From contig JAFGBW010000091.1 of assembly GCA_016932965.1 (NCBI GenBank), positions 1 through 30,559 of the forward strand: DNA of 30,559 bases, written 5' to 3'. Positions 8,183 to 25,740 of the stretch are shown piece after piece. This DNA comes from Candidatus Auribacterota bacterium (GTDB lineage Bacteria; Auribacterota; JAFGBW01). A program made the position numbers and the translations under genes. The notes beneath the pieces were generated by a model. The model saw nothing but the letters and a program-made list of their open reading frames with translations, was not told the origin of the DNA and made no database searches. How positions within the stretch are numbered: position 1 is the first letter of the stretch; every line of letters starts with the position of its first letter.

Positions 8183-8442
8183 GGAGTTTTGAATTTTGAG
8201 TGTTGAGTTTTGAGTTGGGAAATTATTTTAACGAAATGCACGAAATATACGAAAGAAAATTCTGAGTTGATGAAATGATTTTCTTTTCATCTCTTTATAA
8301 AAATTTTATGCGCGGAGAGATTTTTCAGAGAAAAATCTTTTCGCGCACATTTAAAAATTTTTTGGACAGGGGTACGGGGAGAACCTTTTTTATAAAAAAG
8401 GTTCTCCCCGCAGATTTCCAGCACCCTTTAATGGTTGCTGGT
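8183..8442 (+). repeat. Composite repeat, nearly complete copy
   Basis: Heptads (GAGTGTT, GAGTTTT), nonads (ACGAAATGC, ACGAAATAT, ACGAAAG), a linker ending AAAATTTTAT, stem A at 8310-8346 (16-base arms, loop CAGAG, two G-T pairs), stem B at 8375-8410 (17-base perfect arms) and stem C (CCAGCA pairing with TGCTGG). It lies between convergent genes, where stems A and B could act as bidirectional terminators. Confidence 0.88.
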
Positions 8443-8450
8443 CGGGCAGT

Positions 8451-8825
8451 TTAATCGAGCTGTGTCCAGGCTTTTTTCTCTTTGCCGATCTGCAAAACGC
8501 AGTAGAGCAACGCAAGACCGGCGAGACCAAGAGTGGCCTGAACGATGTTGATACCCAGCATCAGGTTAACGAAGAATGTGACTATCGTCGTTGCGAGGAA
8601 GCCAAAAAAAACCCACTTTTTCCATTGGAAAAGCGCGACCGCGCACACAATGTTTACAATTCCCATTATGGTAAGAACAGGAAATGCCCACCCGGGCGCA
8701 GAAGGAAAATTCTGTCTGACAGCCTCGCTCCCCAGCAGGTACATCAGCGCTGAGGCCGCATTCGCAATAATCATCAATACCAGCCACGCAGTAAGGCATC
8801 CATGACGCTGTTTTCCCTCACTCAT
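8451..8825 (-). CDS. Small four-helix membrane protein
   Basis: A 124-residue membrane protein of no family I can name. Four hydrophobic segments (residues about 12-33, 43-63, 68-88 and 94-114) are separated by short loops, and both ends are charged. I chose the ATG at 8823-8825 because GGAG lies seven bases upstream. The same frame stays open to an ATG at 8879, which would add an 18-residue arginine-rich leader. A degenerate attC-like site at 8892-8935 lies just upstream on the same strand, and a composite repeat directly follows the stop. It may therefore be an old integron cassette. Function unknown. Confidence 0.72.
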   Translation of the reverse strand: MSEGKQRHGCLTAWLVLMIIANAASALMYLLGSEAVRQNFPSAPGWAFPVLTIMGIVNIVCAVALFQWKKWVFFGFLATTIVTFFVNLMLGINIVQATLGLAGLALLYCVLQIGKEKKAWTQLD

Positions 8826-8891: not shown

Positions 8892-8935
8892 GCCGAACCT
8901 TCAGCTTCACCCGCAAGTGGGACAGGGGGTTGAAG
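8892..8935 (-). other. Degenerate attC-like site fused to a repeat tail
   Basis: On the minus strand CTTCAAC (8935-8929) and GTTCGGC (8898-8892) bracket a short imperfect hairpin containing TGCGGGTGAAGCTGAAG. The right half closely matches the attC sites at 23961 and 20441. The left half is replaced by the tail of the dispersed repeat. Confidence 0.45.
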
Positions 8936-9333
8936 TCATTAGTTTTGAGTTATCTGATTAACTATCTTATTTGAGACAGGATTTACAGGATAAAAGTTGA
9001 ATTGAGAATGAGAGGAAGGGAATTTTTCACCGCGGAGGACACGGAGAGCACGGAGAATTTTCAAAGCGTTGCTTTGAAAATTTAGGAGTTGTTGAAATAA
9101 TGTTTTACCCATAACTCTTTTTAATAAAGTTTTATGCGCGGAGAGATTTTTCCCTGAAAAAGCTCTCCGCGCATCATTTAAAAAATTTTTTGGACAGGGG
9201 TGCGGGGAAAACCTTTTGCTGCGGCCATCCTGGCCTTGCCCTTACGGGTTCCCTTTGGTCACCAAGCTCCGACAATCCTGTCTTCGCTTCTTATAAAAAG
9301 GTTTTCCCCGCAGACTTCCAGCGCCCTCTCAGG
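8936..9333 (+). repeat. Composite repeat with long-loop stem B
   Basis: Modules in order: GAGTTAT heptads, ACAGGATTT nonads, GAATTGA heptads, CACGGAGAG nonads (9029-9055), a private perfect hairpin at 9056-9082 (12-base arms, loop GTT), stem A at 9134-9174, and stem B with arms 9202-9217 and 9296-9311. The stem B loop is about 78 bases instead of two. A stem C remnant follows. The long loop is shared with the copy at 13747-13856. Confidence 0.88.
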
Positions 9334-10696: not shown

Positions 10697-10872
10697 GCTT
10701 ATTTATTTCATGGCTGTTTATTAAAAACGATTGGCCTGCCGAGTGTTGATTGCGGCTCTGATGCAAACAGGCATGTTGAGAAAAAGATAAAAGGTTTTAT
10801 GATAAAGTAATAAGACTTCATGATTACTTATACCATAAATACATGCTTAACGCAATGGGTGTGAATGAATAA

Positions 10873-10930
10873 ATTCAACATCAGCTTCACAAGAAGGGGG
10901 ACCCCTTGCTTTTTGATTTTTGAATAAGCT
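10873..10930 (-). other. Shortened attC site downstream of the glycosidase gene
   Basis: Minus strand: the conserved block CTTATTCAAAAATCAAAAAG, then AAGGGGTCCCCC, then GAAGCTGATGTTGAAT ending in the core site GTTGAAT (10879-10873). The block matches the one before the plus-strand attC sites at 22590 and 24575. The central hairpin is mostly deleted. Confidence 0.6.
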
Positions 10931-10933
10931 GAC

Positions 10934-12025
10934 TCATCCTTTTTCAATTAAAGATTTAGAGGAACTCCTCCCCTGAACTCCGGTAGTTACGTTTTTAAAA
11001 ATATAGTATGCCTTCTTTTTATCTAAATTAGCTTTCATCAACCCTGAATTTTCATGATAGGTTTGAGGGTTATCAATCAGGTTAAAATAATAGGCTTCCA
11101 TGATTGGTAATGTTTTTATAGCATCTATGTATTTAAGCATTCTATTTGCGTGATATTCTTCTGAATAAATTTCAAATTGTGATGACGGACCGCCAAATTC
11201 CGACACCAATACAGGCTTAGTTATGATCGAAGTTATCGTTTTTACATAAAATTTCCAGTTCTCGGCATCGTCATAGAGATGAAGATCGATCATATCATAT
11301 TTTGCATTTTTTAATACGTATTCTACACGTGTTTTAAGGAATTGTTTTGTGCAGATACGGTCGCATCTTTCATATAAATCTATCCCGGGCTTCAAAGACA
11401 TTTCTTTGAATGAAAGAGGGTATTTATTGACGCATCGGGACATATATACAGGATATAACCGGGTCAATCCCCCCAGGATCACTTTTATTTTTGGAGATAT
11501 GTTTTTTACTTCGTCATATAAAATATTATTAAATTGAACATACTCTTTTTCTGTGCCGGGGTACCATTCCGGATTATCCCACTCATTAGCAAATTGAATT
11601 TTATCAATTTTGTCTTTGTATCTTTTTAATAATGCCTGGACATACTTTCTGAAATCGCGGGCATTAGTAAATACGCCTGTCCCATGGCTCGTTCTATCTG
11701 TGCAGGCCCAATCGGGAGCGACTGCCGTGATAGTCAATAAAATGGATATATGATTGGTGTATAAGCTGTTTATTCTTTGATCGAGAGGAGGCCAATTGAA
11801 AATTTCTTTTTCAGGTTCTCTGAATTTCCAATCCGTTGAGATTCTAACTAATGAAATATTCAACGATTTCATTTCTTGAATGGTGAATTGTATTTCTTTG
11901 GCATTTTTGATTGGAGGAAAAGATAAGCCAAAATCAACTTCTTCCTCAGCCAAAGCGTAATAGCAAGGCAGTAAGCTTATAACGAGTAATAACAAAAATA
12001 CATTTTTTACTTTAATTTCAGGCAT
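10934..12025 (-). CDS. Exported clan GH-A-like glycoside hydrolase
   Basis: A 363-residue exported protein with a signal peptide (about residues 8-26) and a single (beta/alpha)8-type domain. N147-E148 in IQFANEWDNPEW fits the acid/base of clan GH-A, and E276 in VLVSEFGGP fits the nucleophile about 128 residues later. The family within the clan (GH5, GH39 or GH42-like) cannot be fixed by eye. The likely role is polysaccharide cleavage outside the cytoplasm. attC-like sites flank both ends in the same orientation, so this is an integron gene cassette. The start codon sits inside the attC core site GTTATGC (12028-12022), and no conventional ribosome-binding site is seen. Confidence 0.85.
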   Translation of the reverse strand: MPEIKVKNVFLLLLVISLLPCYYALAEEEVDFGLSFPPIKNAKEIQFTIQEMKSLNISLVRISTDWKFREPEKEIFNWPPLDQRINSLYTNHISILLTITAVAPDWACTDRTSHGTGVFTNARDFRKYVQALLKRYKDKIDKIQFANEWDNPEWYPGTEKEYVQFNNILYDEVKNISPKIKVILGGLTRLYPVYMSRCVNKYPLSFKEMSLKPGIDLYERCDRICTKQFLKTRVEYVLKNAKYDMIDLHLYDDAENWKFYVKTITSIITKPVLVSEFGGPSSQFEIYSEEYHANRMLKYIDAIKTLPIMEAYYFNLIDNPQTYHENSGLMKANLDKKKAYYIFKNVTTGVQGRSSSKSLIEKG

Positions 12026-12091
12026 AACATCAGTTTCTCACGGCAGGGGGAAGAACGCACTGCAAACCCCGCCGTGTGGTCCCTGTCGGGT
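12022..12091 (-). other. attC site between the zinc-ribbon and glycosidase genes
   Basis: Minus strand from ACCCGAC (12091-12085) to GTTATGC (12028-12022). Inside, CACGGCGGGG pairs with CCCCTGCCGTG leaving one unpaired base, an extrahelical base as in attC hairpins. The right half GTTCTTCCCCCTGCCGTGAG aligns with the sites at 23894 and 24575. The flanking block GTTAACTAACTTATCC lies 5' of it, up to about 12137. Confidence 0.7.
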
Positions 12092-12165
12092 ACAAGCAAC
12101 GTGGGGGCCTTTCTTTTCTGGATAAGTTAGTTAACACATCCCCTGTTTTTATTTCGCGGCCGGTG

Positions 12166-19812: not shown

Positions 19813-20060
19813 ACCATCAATTAAGAAAGGGCGATGGAAGCTGCGGGGGAAACCTTTTTAAAAAAAGGTTTCCCCCGCACCCCTTATCCAAAAATTTTTA
19901 AATGATGCGCGGAGAGCTTTTTCCGGGAAAAATCTCTCCGCGCATAAAATTTTTTTTATTATTATAGGAGATGAGAGGAAAATCATTTCTTCAACTCAGA
20001 ATTTTCTTTCGTGTATTTCGTGATTAAAAAAAATCCTCTGCGCCACTGCGCGAGTAGTTA
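19813..20060 (-). repeat. Composite repeat, reversed complete copy
   Basis: Read on the minus strand: nonads (ACGAAATAC, ACGAAAG), the heptad tail and linker, stem A at 19905-19945, stem B at 19843-19878 (17-base arms) and stem C (GATGG with CCATC, 19815-19840). Left modules reach further, including CACGGATTT/TACGGATTT at 20379-20399 and the tail at 20440-20460. The stretch 19628-19812 holds no convincing gene. Confidence 0.87.
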
Positions 20061-20440
20061 TTTTCATTGCCTTTCCCCCAAAATTAATATTTAATTTTCG
20101 CATCCAGGGAAAAAGGGAAAAGATATCTATCCAAGTGAAGGGAAGAGCCGTGTTTAATTTATTTTCACGCTCATGGTCTTTTTTTCAAAGCACAACCAAC
20201 GTTACTCCCGGCGGGATTTGGTTCAACGTTTTCCGCCCTAAATGGGGGGAATGATATATTTTGTATAGAATCATTTACCAAATAATTTAATCCGGTCCCG
20301 GGAATTCGAAAAATGAAAATAAACCCAAATATAGATATATAGCAATGCTAATTTTATTCGTCAAAAATATGTATCGTGTCCACGGATTTTACGGATTTTA
20401 ACTCCTGTCAAATAACTATGTTCCAGCTCAAAATTCATGA
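20061..20440. other. Non-coding spacer before the cassette array
   Basis: No gene is supported. It holds an imperfect hairpin in which AACCAA (20194-20199) pairs with TTGGTT (20218-20223) around CCCGGCGGG. This may be a decayed attC. Left-end repeat modules (CACGGATTT nonads, GACAGGAGTT on the minus strand) follow. Confidence 0.4.
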
Positions 20441-20484
20441 CCCCAATTGACCTTCCCTACTTGCGGGTGAAGTCAAACGTGGGA
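20441..20484 (+). other. Degenerate attC-like boundary, first of the plus array
   Basis: TTGACCTTC (20447-20455) pairs with GAAGTCAA (20469-20476) with one extra base, around TTGCGGGT. It is followed by CGTGGGA (20478-20484) in the core-site position. The left half is the tail of the reversed composite repeat. The next gene starts 22 bases later. Confidence 0.45.
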
Positions 20485-20506
20485 AGCAAAAGAAAGGAGA
20501 TTAAGG

Positions 20507-21283
20507 ATGGTGTATAAACCTGGAAAACTGCGTAGGAAGGGAAAAGAAATAGTCAATGCCAGAAATTGGAGTATTGGTATTATAACGGCATTATTAGGTC
20601 TAGGATTCTTCATATCTGAGATACAACGAATAAAAGCACTCAATAATGATCCGATGAATTGGGGTTATTTGGCCCTGTTTATTCTAACAGGCATCTTGGT
20701 ATTTTTGTGGATATGGGCAAGTCAAAAAGAACTGGATCTTCTATTTGACTGGCTCGATCCAGAACGATATGTACCCCCATCTAGCTTGAAAGAAACTATC
20801 ATGATTTTATGGTGTGGCGCAATACTTACGGCGTTACTTTTCTCTTCTAGAGATCCTTATATGTATGGAATTATGTTCTTCCTTTATAGTCTTCTCATAA
20901 TACCATCTGTAAAATACCTCAATGAACAGATAAGAACAGCTATTGATAAGAGTAAAGCAAGGTCAGCGGATGATTTAAACGACCCTAATCAATCAATGAA
21001 AGCGAAACTATACATGGAAGGTGTTGATGTGTTGCATGAATATTTTCTAGAAAGACCCATGTTGAAGCGATTAATAATTATAGCAGTTGCATCTGCAATA
21101 GGTTTAATTGCGGGCATCTATTGGAAACTCTCTGGTCAAAAAATTATTGGAATTTTGTCATATGGAATATTATTTTTAACAATTTTTCTCTCTGAAATAG
21201 TCATCGCACGGTGGCGTTGTATTAGAGATGATAAACTTAGAAAAATTGAAGCTGAATTAGATGAATATATTAGAGATGATTAA
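20507..21283 (+). CDS. Polytopic membrane protein, cassette-borne
   Basis: A 258-residue membrane protein with about six hydrophobic segments (near residues 22-40, 52-70, 98-113, 117-135, 188-206 and 211-230), a basic N-terminus, and a central soluble segment between segments four and five. I recognise no family. AGGAG lies eight bases before the ATG. It is the first gene of the plus-strand cassette array, starting 22 bases after an attC-like boundary and followed 55 bases later by an attC. Its A+T-rich codon use differs from the genes before 19.6 kb, consistent with acquisition. Function unknown. Confidence 0.8.
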   Translation: MVYKPGKLRRKGKEIVNARNWSIGIITALLGLGFFISEIQRIKALNNDPMNWGYLALFILTGILVFLWIWASQKELDLLFDWLDPERYVPPSSLKETIMILWCGAILTALLFSSRDPYMYGIMFFLYSLLIIPSVKYLNEQIRTAIDKSKARSADDLNDPNQSMKAKLYMEGVDVLHEYFLERPMLKRLIIIAVASAIGLIAGIYWKLSGQKIIGILSYGILFLTIFLSEIVIARWRCIRDDKLRKIEAELDEYIRDD

Positions 21284-21337
21284 TCCATAGGAATTCCGGG
21301 TACACAATACTTAATTGTTGAAAAAGGAAGGAATCCC

Positions 21338-21402
21338 GACAAACACATGCACGCTGACCTCATGCGCTGGCGCGCATTCGGTATGGGATGTAGTCGTTGG
21401 GA
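21338..21402 (+). other. attC site 1
   Basis: From GACAAAC (21338-21344) to GTTGGGA (21396-21402). The centre folds as ATGCGC pairing with GCGCAT. AAAAAGGAAGGAATCCC immediately precedes it, as at other attC sites in the window. Confidence 0.65.
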
Positions 21403-21415
21403 AAATATAAACCCT

Positions 21416-22087
21416 ATGATTTTATTTATTTCATCATCTAAAAAATTTATTCTTTTTTTTCTGTTTTGTTTTTTTTGTGCATCTTATTGCTTTGCTGCAA
21501 AAAAATGCCCGAATTGCGGATATATAAACTGTCACCAGGAACGATACTGTCATTCATGTTATACTGACATTTCAAATATCAAAGACGATTCATCTATAAA
21601 TACATCAAAAAAATCAATCGATTTTACCTCAAGTAACCTTAATCTTCAAAAAAATGTGACGGAAAATAATTCTTCATTTTTTAAAATAAAAATCTTTGCC
21701 TACGGAATTTTAGCAGTAGGAATCCTTTTAATCTCAAATCGAATAAAACATGCTTATACAGATTACATGGAAAAGAAAAAGTGGGATGAACGATACAATA
21801 ACTTTAAAAAAGAATCTGCAGAGAATGAAAAAATATGGGAGCAAGAATTTAAAAAAGAAAAAGCAGCAATGGAATTTCAATTAAAACCCTATTCAATTCT
21901 AGGAATCACGCAGGGATCTCCTCAGAATGAGATTAAAAAAAAATATCATGATCTTGTAACAAAATATCACCCTGATAAATTTATTAATGCCTCAAATTCA
22001 GAAAAGGAAATTGCCGCATTAAAGATTAAAGAAATCAATTGGGCCTATAATCAAATAAAAAATATAGTTAAAACTCGTGTGAACTGA
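21416..22087 (+). CDS. Exported zinc-ribbon, membrane J-domain protein
   Basis: A 223-residue protein in an unusual order. A signal peptide (residues about 9-27) comes first, then a zinc ribbon (CPNC and CHSC, with further cysteines, residues 30-50). A transmembrane segment follows at about residues 90-110, then a charged helix, and then a C-terminal J-domain with the HPD motif in YHPDKF. J-domains stimulate DnaK-type chaperones, so topology predicts a periplasmic ribbon and a cytoplasmic J-domain that recruits Hsp70. The frame opens at 21347, but that part lies in the attC. The ATG at 21416 gives a good signal peptide, though no clear ribosome-binding site. Cassette-borne. Confidence 0.82.
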   Translation: MILFISSSKKFILFFLFCFFCASYCFAAKKCPNCGYINCHQERYCHSCYTDISNIKDDSSINTSKKSIDFTSSNLNLQKNVTENNSSFFKIKIFAYGILAVGILLISNRIKHAYTDYMEKKKWDERYNNFKKESAENEKIWEQEFKKEKAAMEFQLKPYSILGITQGSPQNEIKKKYHDLVTKYHPDKFINASNSEKEIAALKIKEINWAYNQIKNIVKTRVN

Positions 22088-22121
22088 GGACAAAGTCAAA
22101 ATAACAATTTAACGAAATATT

Positions 22122-22140
22122 AAGGAAGGAATCCTAGCCA
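22122..22140 (+). other. Left half of an interrupted attC
   Basis: This 19-base stretch matches 22576-22594 with one mismatch (GGAAGGAATCCT/CAGCCA). The attC then stops and an IS110-type fragment begins. It is the left end of the attC of the J-domain cassette. Confidence 0.6.
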
Positions 22141-22143
22141 GTT

Positions 22144-22449
22144 TTTATCACCTACATGGTGATGGGCATCCACTTCATCACTCTTGTTTCCACCCTTTGC
22201 AATCCAGCGGTTTTGTTTGGGATCCGTCACAACGAGGTGTTCCCCGTGCGCATGACATAGATCAACCATCCAGGCTGCCAGCGTTCGTTCCTCGATATAG
22301 ATGGTTCTTGGCTTCTTAATAGATTGACTAAATTGAATGATCGTTTTCTCTGAGGTCGCTGTCTTGGTTCGGGTGACAAGATTCCCTCTTTCATTCACTA
22401 CTGCGGCGTCTATGCTTGCCATGTGTACATCCATTGCGATAATATTCAT
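22144..22449 (-). pseudogene. IS110-family transposase, N-terminal fragment
   Basis: The fragment keeps about the first 90 residues of a DEDD transposase of the IS110/IS1111 family. IIAMDVHMASIDAAVV carries the first catalytic aspartate, YIEERTLAAWMVDLCHAHG the glutamate, and KGGNKSDEVDA the next acidic pair. The remainder is lost: after SDEVDA the frame runs into unrelated codons and stops in attC sequence. AGGAGG sits about eight bases before the ATG at 22449. Related IS1111-group elements are known to insert into attC sites, which fits its place between two attC sequences. It cannot be active. Confidence 0.85.
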
Positions 22450-22482
22450 TGGGTATTCCTCCTTTCGTTGGTTTGTTTGACT

Positions 22483-22501
22483 GTTGCTATTGTATAGCAA
22501 C
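22483..22501. repeat. Perfect hairpin upstream of the transposase remnant
   Basis: GTTGCTAT (22483-22490) and ATAGCAAC (22494-22501) form an 8-base stem with loop TGT. It is probably part of the insertion sequence's regulatory or end region. Confidence 0.5.
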
Positions 22502-22589
22502 TTTGAAAGAAGGGATACCCTCCCTCGACGCCTTATATTCTCAGTGTTAACTAATTGACTTATTCAATAATCAAAAAGGAAGGAATCCC

Positions 22590-22654
22590 AGCCAACACAT
22601 GGAACTGACTTTTTGCGCGGTGCGGGCAAAAAACAGCTCAAGCTGTTGTTTGGA
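22590..22654 (+). other. attC site 2
   Basis: From AGCCAAC (22590-22596) to a core site near GTTGTTT/GTTTGGA (22645-22654). The centre folds as ACTTTTTGC pairing with GCAAAAAAC. The block GTTAACTAATTGACTTATTC lies 45 bases upstream. Confidence 0.6.
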
Positions 22655-22669
22655 AGGAGGGAATATCTA

Positions 22670-23890
22670 ATGAAAAAATCATCTTTAATTTCATTCATCT
22701 TTTTAATGTTAATTCCTTGGGCATTTTCAAAGGAATTAGACAAGGAATTAATCGATTTAATGGAAAAGACACATAATTTCATATCCGGTGCGGAGTATGA
22801 AGTGTCTAAAAGCAAACCAACTGAAATTCCCTTATGTATTGATTCAGGGACGCTATGGATAATCAATTTTATGTGGAAATCTAAAGATGATAAATTCAAT
22901 ATATCGTTAGTAAATCCTAAAGGTAAAAAAATAAAACCGGATAATAAAAAAATTAAATATTTCGAAACAACAGAGGAAGAAGGGGGCCTATCCAGTTTTT
23001 TTTTACTGAATCCTAAATTTGGCATGTGGAAATTTGTTTTATCAGTTGATAAATCTGACCAAGATGCATGTAACATATCCATGATGGTTATGAGTGATTC
23101 AACTATTTCTACTGAAGGAAGCCTTGGCCAGGACATCAGGATTCAGCAGCCAATCCTCTTAAATTTAAAGATTAAAGATGAAAATACCCCGATTCTCAAC
23201 GCCGAGGTCATCGCAGATATTTTTGATGAAAATAATAACTTTATTGAAAAAGTTAAATTGTCAGATGATGGAACAAATGGAGATGAAAAATCAAATGATG
23301 GGGAATATTCGTTTTTATATGAAAATACCAACAAACCTGGAAAATATCATATAAAATATAATATAACGGCAAAATTAAATAATGGAGCTGTTTTAACGCG
23401 TACTGAACTAGCTGGTTATGCTGTAAAAATACCCGTAGAAATTGAAATCCTCGAAATCACAGGCGAATCCACTGTCAGTAAAACCGCGCCTTATCAGCTG
23501 GAAATACAGGTAAAAGTAAAAAATGATCACGGTGTGGATTTTTTTCTGGGCGCTGAACTTTATGATCAGTCAGGTAATAAACATATTTCTTTTGCGCGCA
23601 CGCGAATAGAAGATAATAAAAAGAAACAAGGCATACAAACAGTAACATTGTCTTTCAATACTGATTCCATCTGGGAAGAAAAAATCGATGGTCCTTATCT
23701 CATAAAAGATTTTCTGGCCCACCCACATTCAGATCAAAACGGTTTTCCAACATTTTCTAAATTAACTTATTTAACAAAACCGTATAAAGCATCTGAATTT
23801 GAATACACCAGGGGCAATAAAGGCAAAAGGAGATGGGGACCTGTTTACATTATCGGCAAGGACGGAGTCAGGAAATTATTGGAAGAATAG
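22670..23890 (+). CDS. Secreted Ig-like domain protein, cassette-borne
   Basis: A 406-residue secreted protein with a signal peptide (residues 1-20). Residues 50-150 look like a beta-sandwich of the pre-peptidase C-terminal type (TLWIINFMWKSKDDKFNISL). A second domain at about residues 165-255 contains DDGTNGDEKSNDGEYSF, the signature of the Ig-like domain seen in surface proteins with VWA or choice-of-anchor X modules. A third beta-rich region follows. No catalytic residues are seen; an adhesive or structural role is inferred. GGAGG lies nine bases before the ATG at 22670. The attC begins right after the stop. Confidence 0.82.
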   Translation: MKKSSLISFIFLMLIPWAFSKELDKELIDLMEKTHNFISGAEYEVSKSKPTEIPLCIDSGTLWIINFMWKSKDDKFNISLVNPKGKKIKPDNKKIKYFETTEEEGGLSSFFLLNPKFGMWKFVLSVDKSDQDACNISMMVMSDSTISTEGSLGQDIRIQQPILLNLKIKDENTPILNAEVIADIFDENNNFIEKVKLSDDGTNGDEKSNDGEYSFLYENTNKPGKYHIKYNITAKLNNGAVLTRTELAGYAVKIPVEIEILEITGESTVSKTAPYQLEIQVKVKNDHGVDFFLGAELYDQSGNKHISFARTRIEDNKKKQGIQTVTLSFNTDSIWEEKIDGPYLIKDFLAHPHSDQNGFPTFSKLTYLTKPYKASEFEYTRGNKGKRRWGPVYIIGKDGVRKLLEE

Positions 23891-23893
23891 GAA

Positions 23894-23967
23894 TTCCTCC
23901 CTTTGTTTTCACCCGGCGGGGGCTTAATGCAACGTTCTTATCCCTGCGGGTGAAGCTGATGTTGGAA
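23894..23967 (+). other. attC site 3
   Basis: TTCACCCGGCGGGGG pairs with TCCCTGCGGGTGAA with bulges around an 18-base loop. It ends in GCTGATGTTGGAA, core site GTTGGAA at 23961-23967. The inverse core site is degenerate (TTCCTCC for TTCCAAC). Confidence 0.7.
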
Positions 23968-24033
23968 TTTTTATCACAAATCAACGACTTATGAATTTAG
24001 TTTCATAGTGAAATAAGAAGGGAAACACAATAT

Positions 24034-24510
24034 ATGAAGAAGAACATCTTAATACCAATCACGATCATTCTAATAATATTATCTGGAAAAGCAGAAGCAG
24101 CAATTAAAGGTCCTGTTATCACTAAGGAAAATCAAAAGGAACTTGGATTTGATTTTTCAATAAATATTACTCCCTTAATCGGTCTTACTAAGGATAATAT
24201 AAAGATCTCAAACTCGGAGAACAAATGTTTTCAGATATTGATTGATATCCCAAAAAAGGGAAAGTTAAAACAGATTGAGTTTTTTACTCTTTCAGCTTTT
24301 GATGAAACTGCGAACAGGTTTTTATTTGCAATAAAATTTGATTTAATGAGCAAAGAAAAAAATAACGAGGAAGAATTTGTGCCCCATTTTTTATCCCGAC
24401 CGATCCTAATATCGGAGTCCATTTTAGAAATTTGTGATCTAATTATTACTATTAAAGAAGGAGCGAGTTGGACTTATTTTACAGTAAAATTAAATACTTA
24501 CATAACGTAA
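24034..24510 (+). CDS. Small secreted protein, cassette-borne
   Basis: A 158-residue secreted protein with a signal peptide ending near AEA (residue 22). The mature part is beta-rich, with alternating hydrophobic residues and no cysteine pair or catalytic motif I can name. AAGGGA lies about 11 bases before the ATG. It sits between attC sites 3 and 4 and shares the A+T-rich composition of the array. No family is recognised, and the role is unknown. It starts 67 bases after the core site, further than its neighbours, so the leader may hold its own promoter. Confidence 0.75.
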   Translation: MKKNILIPITIILIILSGKAEAAIKGPVITKENQKELGFDFSINITPLIGLTKDNIKISNSENKCFQILIDIPKKGKLKQIEFFTLSAFDETANRFLFAIKFDLMSKEKNNEEEFVPHFLSRPILISESILEICDLIITIKEGASWTYFTVKLNTYIT

Positions 24511-24532
24511 AGGAACAGGAAAAAAGGGGACG

Positions 24533-24646
24533 GTGTTGACTAATTAACTTATTCACAAACCAAAAAGGAAGGAATCCCCCCCTTGCTTTCACCCGGCGGG
24601 AGGTGGTGCAGCGTTTTTCCCTTTGCGGGGGAAGCTGATGTTAGGT
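24533..24646 (+). other. attC site 4 with conserved upstream block
   Basis: The conserved block GTTGACTAATTAACTTATTC begins near 24534 and runs into AAAAAGGAAGGAATCCC. The hairpin TTTCACCCGGCGGGAGG pairs with CCCTTTGCGGGGGAAGC. The core site GTTAGGT is at 24640-24646. Confidence 0.7.
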
Positions 24647-24654
24647 GTACATTT

Positions 24655-24969
24655 ATGGAAGTGATCGATTATGAAGATTATTGCTGGTATCTGTTAAAAC
24701 ATGACGGAAAATTATTTTTAGATGGAAACTATAATCATAGTGCTTTTGGTTATGATTTTATGATTCAGCTGAATGAAACCGAAGAACAGGTATTTAAAGA
24801 AAAGGGACGAGATTATATTCACGGTCTATATCATGAAATTCAATATTCCGCTCCGATTTTAAAAGACTCGAAATCAGAATTTAAAAACAGAAAAGTTCCC
24901 AAAGAATTTGCAGTCCTGGCCGGCAAAGCTTGTGAAGTATGGAATAAAAAACATGGAAAGCATGGTTAA
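24655..24969 (+). CDS. Small cassette-encoded protein
   Basis: A 104-residue soluble protein starting MEVIDYEDYCWYLLKHDG. It is rich in aromatic residues in the first half (FGYDFMIQLNETEE) with a helical, basic C-terminus. I recognise the general look of small integron-cassette proteins but no functional family. The frame is open back to 24583, but that part is attC. The ATG lies nine bases after the core site, and the core-site region TTAGGTG may double as the ribosome-binding site. It sits between attC sites 4 and 5. Function unknown. Confidence 0.75.
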   Translation: MEVIDYEDYCWYLLKHDGKLFLDGNYNHSAFGYDFMIQLNETEEQVFKEKGRDYIHGLYHEIQYSAPILKDSKSEFKNRKVPKEFAVLAGKACEVWNKKHGKHG

Positions 24970-24983
24970 AGAAAGAGGTTTGC

Positions 24984-25055
24984 ACCTAACAAAACATTCA
25001 GCCTGATTCTAAATTCGCTGCGCGAATGATAGAACGGCTTAATTTTACGTTAGCC
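24984..25055 (+). other. attC site 5 (canonical)
   Basis: The clearest attC. ACCTAAC (24984-24990) and GTTAGCC (25049-25055) form the ends. Inside, CAGCC pairs with GGCT, TTCTA with TAGAA, and TTCGC with GCGAA around loop TGC. TTCAGCC and GGCTTAATTTTACGTTAG resemble aadA-type attC sites. Confidence 0.88.
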
Positions 25056-25075
25056 TAATGATTTTTATTGATCGA

Positions 25076-25118
25076 TTGACATCCATTTTGATAGTATTAC
25101 TATAGTAATACCGGAGGT
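25076..25118 (+). promoter_or_regulatory. Toxin-antitoxin promoter with palindromic operator
   Basis: TTGACA (25076-25081) and TACTAT (25098-25103) are 16 bases apart. A perfect 18-base palindrome GTATTACTATAGTAATAC (25094-25111) covers the -10 box, and GGAGGT (25113-25118) serves the antitoxin gene. Binding of the antitoxin here for autorepression is the expected logic. Confidence 0.7.
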
Positions 25119-25123
25119 AATAT

Positions 25124-25366
25124 ATGTCAGTAGCAAAACTTGCAATATCATTAGATTCTAAAATGTTAAAAAAACTTGATAAACTGGTTGCGATTCATAT
25201 TTTTCCTAATCGCTCAAAAGCAATACAGGAAGCTTTGGAAGAAAAATTAATAAAGATTGATAAATCCCGTCTTGCTTTTGAATGTGCCAAATTAAATCCA
25301 ATAGAAGAAAAACAAATTGCTGATGAGGGCATCGATAATGAGGCAGAAGAATGGGAAAAATATTAA
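25124..25366 (+). CDS. mazE: MazE-like ribbon-helix-helix antitoxin
   Basis: An 80-residue antitoxin. Residues 1-48 form a ribbon-helix-helix DNA-binding domain (KLAISLDSKMLKKLDKLV, then NRSKAIQEALEEKL). The acidic C-terminal tail (EEKQIADEGIDNEAEEWEKY) should wrap and block the toxin. GGAGGT lies six bases before the ATG. The last codons overlap the toxin gene by 16 bases, the usual coupled arrangement. It should bind the palindrome at 25094-25111 to repress the operon. The pair forms one integron cassette, where such modules are thought to stabilise arrays against loss. Confidence 0.88.
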   Translation: MSVAKLAISLDSKMLKKLDKLVAIHIFPNRSKAIQEALEEKLIKIDKSRLAFECAKLNPIEEKQIADEGIDNEAEEWEKY

Positions 25367-25689
25367 GAGGGGATATTTACTGGGCTGATTTAAATCCTGT
25401 AAAAGGAAAAGAACAGGCAGGGCATCGTCCGGTTTTAATAATAAGTGAGGATGTCTTTAATGAACACTCAGGTACAGTAATAGCACTAGCCATCACTAGC
25501 CAACCTCAAAAAGCCGGATTTCCCCTTACATTTCATCTTGGAAAAAGAAATTTATTGAAGGAATCATGGATCAAAATCAGCCAAATCAGAACACTTTCCA
25601 TTGAACGGATTGGAAGTAAACTTGGGCATGTTTCTAACACTGAATTGATGCAGATAATTGACGGCCTTAAAGAAATCATTGGGGGCTGA
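25351..25689 (+). CDS. mazF: MazF/PemK-type mRNA endoribonuclease toxin
   Basis: A 112-residue toxin of the MazF/PemK family. The hallmarks are the N-terminal RGDIYWADLNPVKGKEQ with the conserved arginine and aspartate, GHRPVLIIS, a central strand with the catalytic-face threonine or serine (ALAITSQPQ), and the conserved QIRTLSIERIG. It cleaves mRNA at short sequences in the cytoplasm; the exact site cannot be predicted. Full length for the family. Its stop codon overlaps the first bases of the following attC (ICS-like GGCTGAC at 25684-25690). Confidence 0.92.
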   Translation: MGKILRGDIYWADLNPVKGKEQAGHRPVLIISEDVFNEHSGTVIALAITSQPQKAGFPLTFHLGKRNLLKESWIKISQIRTLSIERIGSKLGHVSNTELMQIIDGLKEIIGG

Positions 25690-25740
25690 CCAGATACTTC
25701 AGCCGACCGCTTACCGCGGCGGCTGAGTTCTATGTTAAGT
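25684..25740 (+). other. attC site 6, end of the mazEF cassette
   Basis: TCAGCCGACCGC pairs with GCGGCGGCTGA leaving one unpaired base, around TTACC. The site runs from GGCTGAC (25684-25690) to the core site GTTAAGT (25734-25740). It is the last attC of the array. Confidence 0.82.

Follow-up and report, generated by a model that had tools for sequence, protein, structure and literature searches.

The question raised by the contig described here (C154 in our numbering; 30,559 bases, the whole of which is called the window) is whether a run of small genes at positions 20,441 to 25,740 is an integron gene-cassette array, and how such an array came to stand without an integrase. The genome, G000, is a metagenome-assembled genome (MAG) of 3.14 Mb in 300 contigs, 92.6% complete. 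The original prediction, made from the letters of the window, had proposed an integrase-free cassette array, richer in A+T than its surroundings, in a probable candidate-phylum genome. The phylum assignment was right, since JAGLFH010000003.1 (isolate RS_1_24, labelled Candidatus Auribacterota) is contained letter for letter in G017 (RS_1_24), our comparison genome of the same order. The GC content of the block is 35.2%, against 44.2% in the left and 51.9% in the right flank. The array is almost certainly a CALIN, that is, a cluster of attC sites lacking an integron integrase, a kind of locus thought to derive from degraded integrons (Cury et al. 2016; IntegronFinder 2.0, PMC9024848).

The check proposed with the prediction, an attC covariance model, scores sites in the array. 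Two models were purpose-built and are not those of IntegronFinder, and their E-values are rough. The first, R1, encodes the R''/R' and L''/L' pairs and was trained on 22 aligned, unedited sites taken from contigs with an integrase in many phyla (alignment A4; an alignment with hand-trimmed spacers, A3, was set aside), while the second, R2, was made from 11 dispersed attC-type tails of G000 alone, described below. R1 found two significant sites in the window, both well formed and on the plus strand, as are all sites of the array: 24984..25055 (39 bits, E 1e-7) and the last of the array, 25684..25740 (24.3 bits, E 5e-4; 21.3 bits with R2). The bottom strand of the former has a fold energy 4.2 standard deviations under shuffles, and a site resembling it is present on the integrase-bearing contig C364 of genome G006; the fold z of the latter is -5.2. 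R2 adds 23891..23970 (35 bits, E 2.6e-7; R' GTTGGAA at 23961-23967) and 24572..24646 (26.7 bits, E 5e-5; R' GTTAGGT at 24640-24646), both with the hairpin kept and R'' lost. It also adds 20190..20259 (21.6 bits, E 0.0012), a decayed plus-strand site of the dispersed-tail type which has lost R' and lies upstream of the block, and 12029..12097 on the minus strand. A CALIN has at least two attC sites less than 4 kb apart, one cassette orientation and no integrase; here the pair 24984 and 25684 (R1), and likewise the pair 23891 and 24572 (R2), lie on one strand within 4 kb.

The remaining sites of the array are damaged. The site at 22585..22654 (R'' TCCCAGC, R' GTTTGGA at 22648-22654) gave an R1 match at 22590-22651 that is not significant (11.2 bits, E 0.87), and fits the cassette signature described below. 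The site at 21334..21402 (R'' TCCCGAC, R' GTTGGGA at 21396-21402), unscored by R1, was recognised by the likeness of its inner hairpin CTCATGCGCTGGCGCGCATTCGG, which it has in common, with one difference, with a weak attC at C140:1659; its stems are decayed. The first cassette is opened by a remnant at 20440..20486, consisting of L' and an altered R' CGTGGGA, which was found by alignment to related sites and received no score from either model. As the sites at about 20440, 21336 and 22590 are thus decayed, the predicted count of five well-formed and two damaged sites was too high, R1 finding two well formed; the attC sites themselves are real, and their position on the plus strand between units of one or two genes was confirmed. 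A scan of the window against Rfam returned no match.

Outside the window, R1 identified in G000 a second cassette array without integrase, with three scored sites (C37, locus L050, 5938-8043), as well as one lone site (C204) and one weak site (C140). Across the phylum, attC sites were found in 28 of 44 genomes, with 53 sites in G017. No integrase gene lies in the window, as had been noted, and a search of G000 with the IntI profile TIGR02249 gave only two XerC/D-like recombinases, far below the cut-off.

The strongest internal evidence comes from the way in which cassettes are inserted. A cassette inserted as a circle opens with TTRRRY and closes with a complementary R'', and its R'' therefore pairs with the R' of the previous site and not with its own. 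In G017 this signature is perfect in 45 of 50 cassettes, compared with 12% under random pairing, and within-site agreement is seen in 11 of 57. In G000, all 20 variable bases agree in five intact cassettes (that of gene 24655, the toxin-antitoxin cassette, two on C37 and that on C204), a score attained by 1 of 120 permutations, with within-site matches of 0-2 of 4. The two in the window, both on the plus strand, are 24641..25049 (TTAGGT start, ACCTAAC...G end) and 25050..25734 (TTAGCC start, GGCTGAC...G end), each matching at four of four bases. The damaged window cassettes of genes 20507 and 21416 also agree at four of four, and the two whose R'' is lost at three of four; because the register of R'' in damaged sites was picked by eye, the test proper is confined to the five intact cassettes. 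The cross-site comparison of R'' and R' is an easy way to test, in numbers, whether a cassette array is genuine. It contradicts the idea, which we consider very improbable, that the sites are ordinary terminator or repetitive extragenic palindromic (REP) hairpins in a normal A+T-rich island. Several sites do go unscored by the attC model and repeats abound, as that idea would have it, but the R1 and R2 scores also speak against it, and so does the consensus tail described below, one arm of which has two extrahelical bases.

The reading as a cassette array without integrase is thus upheld by the R1 scores and the circle signature. Conservation of the same gene order across distant relatives, which would have argued the other way, was not seen in a DNA-level comparison with 58 other genomes, no close relative being among them: there was no copy of the array, and what did match was the toxin-antitoxin region, short stretches of attC and other short stretches that look like chance.

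When the R''-less site at 23890 was used as a query, the same hairpin turned up on other contigs, at five loci of no special kind, and a wider search brought to 11 the places in G000 that carry this attC-type tail. The elements follow a common plan. From left to right they show G|TTATCC, a body containing CACGAAA/TTTCGTG as inverted repeats, the R'' box GGATAAC, CAACGCTTTCACCCGACAGGG...CCCTGCGGGTGAAGCTAAT and a final G. Both ends are present in eight of the 11, which measure 195-393 bp and have a longest open reading frame (ORF) of 52 amino acids. The left end complements R'' (G|TTATCC / GGATAAC), as the cassette rule demands, in most of these eight; deviant R'' boxes occur on C35 (GAATAAC) and C215 (AGATAAC). 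Inspection by eye of the eight copies with both ends showed no target duplication. The right junction is G|WT in nine of the 11 (background 17%, P 5e-6), and the consensus of attG sites is GWT. Folded as the bottom strand, the consensus tail resembles an attC site in having an R box, spacers that stay unpaired, an L box and a stem in which one arm carries two extrahelical bases. The model built from these tails, R2, was run against 720 kb of sequence, partly from G000 and partly foreign, and gave 15 foreign matches, 14 of which are independent R1 attC calls at essentially the same coordinates, sites of G017 among them; the fifteenth, which has the look of an attC (ACATAAC...GTTATAA), lies on a gammaproteobacterial contig with an integrase gene. 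Although attC arrays are plentiful in the set, the sites themselves account for no more than about 1% of the bases searched, and chance does not explain these matches. It is therefore probable, if less firmly so than for the array, that the dispersed elements are cassettes inserted by an integron integrase.

Several observations weigh against this account. In fold energy the consensus tail has only a moderate advantage over shuffles (z -2.1), single dispersed tails fall short of significance with R1, and a covariation test found no compensatory changes among the 11 tails, which we read as neutral decay; the attC identity of the tails accordingly rests on the consensus and on the cross-matches of R2. 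The palindromic body (GTTATCC...GGATAAC) is in addition present at many loci where no attC tail can be recognised, so that it may be a palindromic repeat able to spread by itself. Accepting the array as a CALIN, one could then regard the dispersed elements as palindromic repeats, resembling miniature inverted-repeat transposable elements (MITEs) or REPs, which acquired an attC hairpin as their right end and were moved by some other transposase, for example of the IS200/IS605 kind, without target duplication. Other REP-like repeats are common in G000, and the terminal complementarity extends about two bases beyond what a cassette needs. We nevertheless hold this alternative to be rather unlikely. 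At least two further tail types begin exactly at R'' after the same body, namely that at C37:5938 (30.5 bits with R1) and an attC-like one on C220, and the G|WT right junctions and the left ends complementary to R'' are likewise difficult to accommodate. Comparison with the IS200/IS605 type, in which a subterminal hairpin marks each end and the target at the left end is conserved, showed the right hairpin of the elements and no short left hairpin. Among the foreign loci examined, none showed the palindromic body.

A further point against insertion and decay as the whole explanation is the state of the assembly, as G000 is a MAG of 300 contigs at 92.6% completeness and an IntI gene could sit in the missing part. 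The integron might then still be alive, with intI in the unassembled 7% or acting in trans and the two arrays as outlying or rearranged parts of it. Repeat-rich arrays are known to break draft assemblies (PMC9024848), and G017, which shares phylum and order with G000 and whose attC sites are matched by R2, is itself fragmented, with two IntI and more than 50 attC spread over its contigs. A live integron nevertheless seems improbable to us. Both arrays of G000 are flanked by other genes within their own contigs, and a contig break at the edge of an array therefore does not explain the missing intI; moreover, most attC sites here are damaged, unlike those of G017, whose cassettes are nearly all signature-intact. 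In the phylum IntI was found in 13 of 44 genomes, all 13 attC-positive (13 of 28 attC-positive against none of 16 attC-negative genomes, P 0.0013), and six other genomes at least 90% complete (G021, with 17 attC, G022, G023, G001, G009 and G012) have attC sites and no IntI. The gene was probably lost from G000 and not missed by the assembly.

Taken together, the data make it likely that G000 holds a decaying integron array, with gene-less or lone cassettes inserted elsewhere and no integrase found now. Cassettes, each a gene or gene pair with its attC, would have been inserted one by one by an integron integrase whose cut falls at G|TT of the bottom strand in its folded form. With no integrase gene found in G000, the attC sites would since have eroded, two of those in the window staying intact and others losing R'', R' or stem pairing, in what appears to be neutral decay. 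The same or a related integrase may have placed gene-less cassettes, consisting of the palindromic body and an attC, at scattered G|WT positions outside the integron, along with at least one lone gene cassette (that of C204), and the outcome of the scattered insertions would be a repeat-like family; IntI is, by this evidence, the presumed agent of the insertions. With less assurance, though still as slightly more likely than not, we propose that a gene-less cassette has turned into a dispersed MITE-like repeat, its many copies scattered by the integron integrase at G|WT and outliving that integrase.

The integrase-free array is of a kind already known, and it is the dispersed gene-less family that is new and was not expected. 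The array differs from described CALINs in that it belongs to Auribacterota, a phylum missing from the list of integron carriers in PMC8618304, and in that it shows graded attC decay, the R'' of several sites being replaced by a common AAGGAAGGAATCC. Insertion of cassettes outside integrons at attG sites was reported by Loot et al. 2024, according to the passages citing that work in PMC12444791 and PMC12901181. Recombination of this type is known mainly from experiments, in which many different cassettes were used, whereas here one gene-less type is found at 11 or more chromosomal places of a natural genome. The likeness lies in the position outside any integron and in the G|WT joints. The ORF-less cassettes of Vibrio and Treponema integrons also end in attC and contain no ORF, but they lie inside arrays, with a promoter role (PMC11014356, PMC6557892), whereas the elements of G000 have a palindromic body and occur one at a time between ordinary genes. 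The literature searched contained no report of a dispersed repeat family built from a gene-less cassette. If the family holds, G000 is a natural, chromosome-wide record of integron recombination outside integrons; a cassette could then give rise to a repeat family even when it carries no gene, and the attC sites would form a series in graded decay without integrase.

The genes of the array encode mainly secreted or membrane proteins, signal peptides and membrane segments having been called by eye. On the plus strand these are a membrane protein of 258 amino acids without significant family (20507..21283); a secreted or membrane protein with a zinc-ribbon-like part and a C-terminal J domain (21416..22087; PF00226, E 3e-12); a secreted protein of 406 amino acids with a choice-of-anchor X domain (22670..23890; NF041940, E 3e-8, over the cut-off), for which no plasmid homologue was found; a secreted protein of 158 amino acids without family match (24034..24510); and a protein of 104 amino acids without signal peptide or assigned family (24655..24969), which has one weak, unannotated relative on a Persicobacter plasmid (33%). 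The last cassette carries a toxin-antitoxin pair, a ribbon-helix-helix antitoxin (25124..25366; PF01402, E 1.5e-5) and a MazF/PemK toxin (25351..25689; PF02452, E 1e-30). A role of the cassette proteins in phage defence was considered and dropped, PADLOC giving no convincing match; the mad2 match of a methyltransferase on C37 spans its methyltransferase domain only.

Between two attC remnants, on the minus strand, lies an N-terminal fragment of an IS110-family transposase gene (22120..22500; NF033542, E 5e-10). A full-length IS110-family gene stands about 280 bases upstream of the weak attC of C140, on the same strand (locus L230, 1659-3032). IS110 was rejected as the source of the R'' damage, as the window fragment is only distantly akin to that gene and the place of an insertion could not be pinned down. 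In both arrays, most damaged attC sites have AAGGAAGGAATCC, or a version differing at one base, in place of R'' or directly beside it; such copies are at 21324, 22122, 22576 and 24565 in the window and at 8669, 11686 and 13925 on C37. The exact 13-mer is restricted in G000 to the damaged attC sites of the window and to C37, which excludes AAAAAGGAAGGAATCCC as a genome-wide mobile repeat, and one-mismatch matches elsewhere look unrelated, barring two at damaged C37 sites. Two products of the C37 array have a CLSP/ALSP-type motif after the signal peptide, which is common to many exported proteins of G000. On C204 (locus L229, 2151-2700) an intact one-gene cassette (G|TTATAT...ATATAAC...attC) stands alone between apparently ordinary genes and was probably inserted outside any integron.

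The lone minus-strand site at 12029..12097 belongs to the dispersed-tail family (R2 25.7 bits, E 9e-5). It directly precedes an A+T-rich, glycosyl-hydrolase-like gene (10934-12025, minus strand, 34.6% GC), which has an attC-like half-site at about 10870-10910 on its other side, and the region 10870-12097 is perhaps another old cassette. A further attC-like half-site is seen at about 8895-8930. Neither these sites nor the IS110 fragment and the MazF-type pair had figured in the original prediction. Among other repeats, a REP-like motif TTCCGGGGACAnnATACnnAATT is dispersed in G000 (window 21294-21316; C37 8635; C39, C226, C252 and C274), and a GC-rich palindromic repeat occurs in the window at 19842-19954, 8239-8442 and 9123-9330 and, at 83-87% identity, on C57, C150 and C136.

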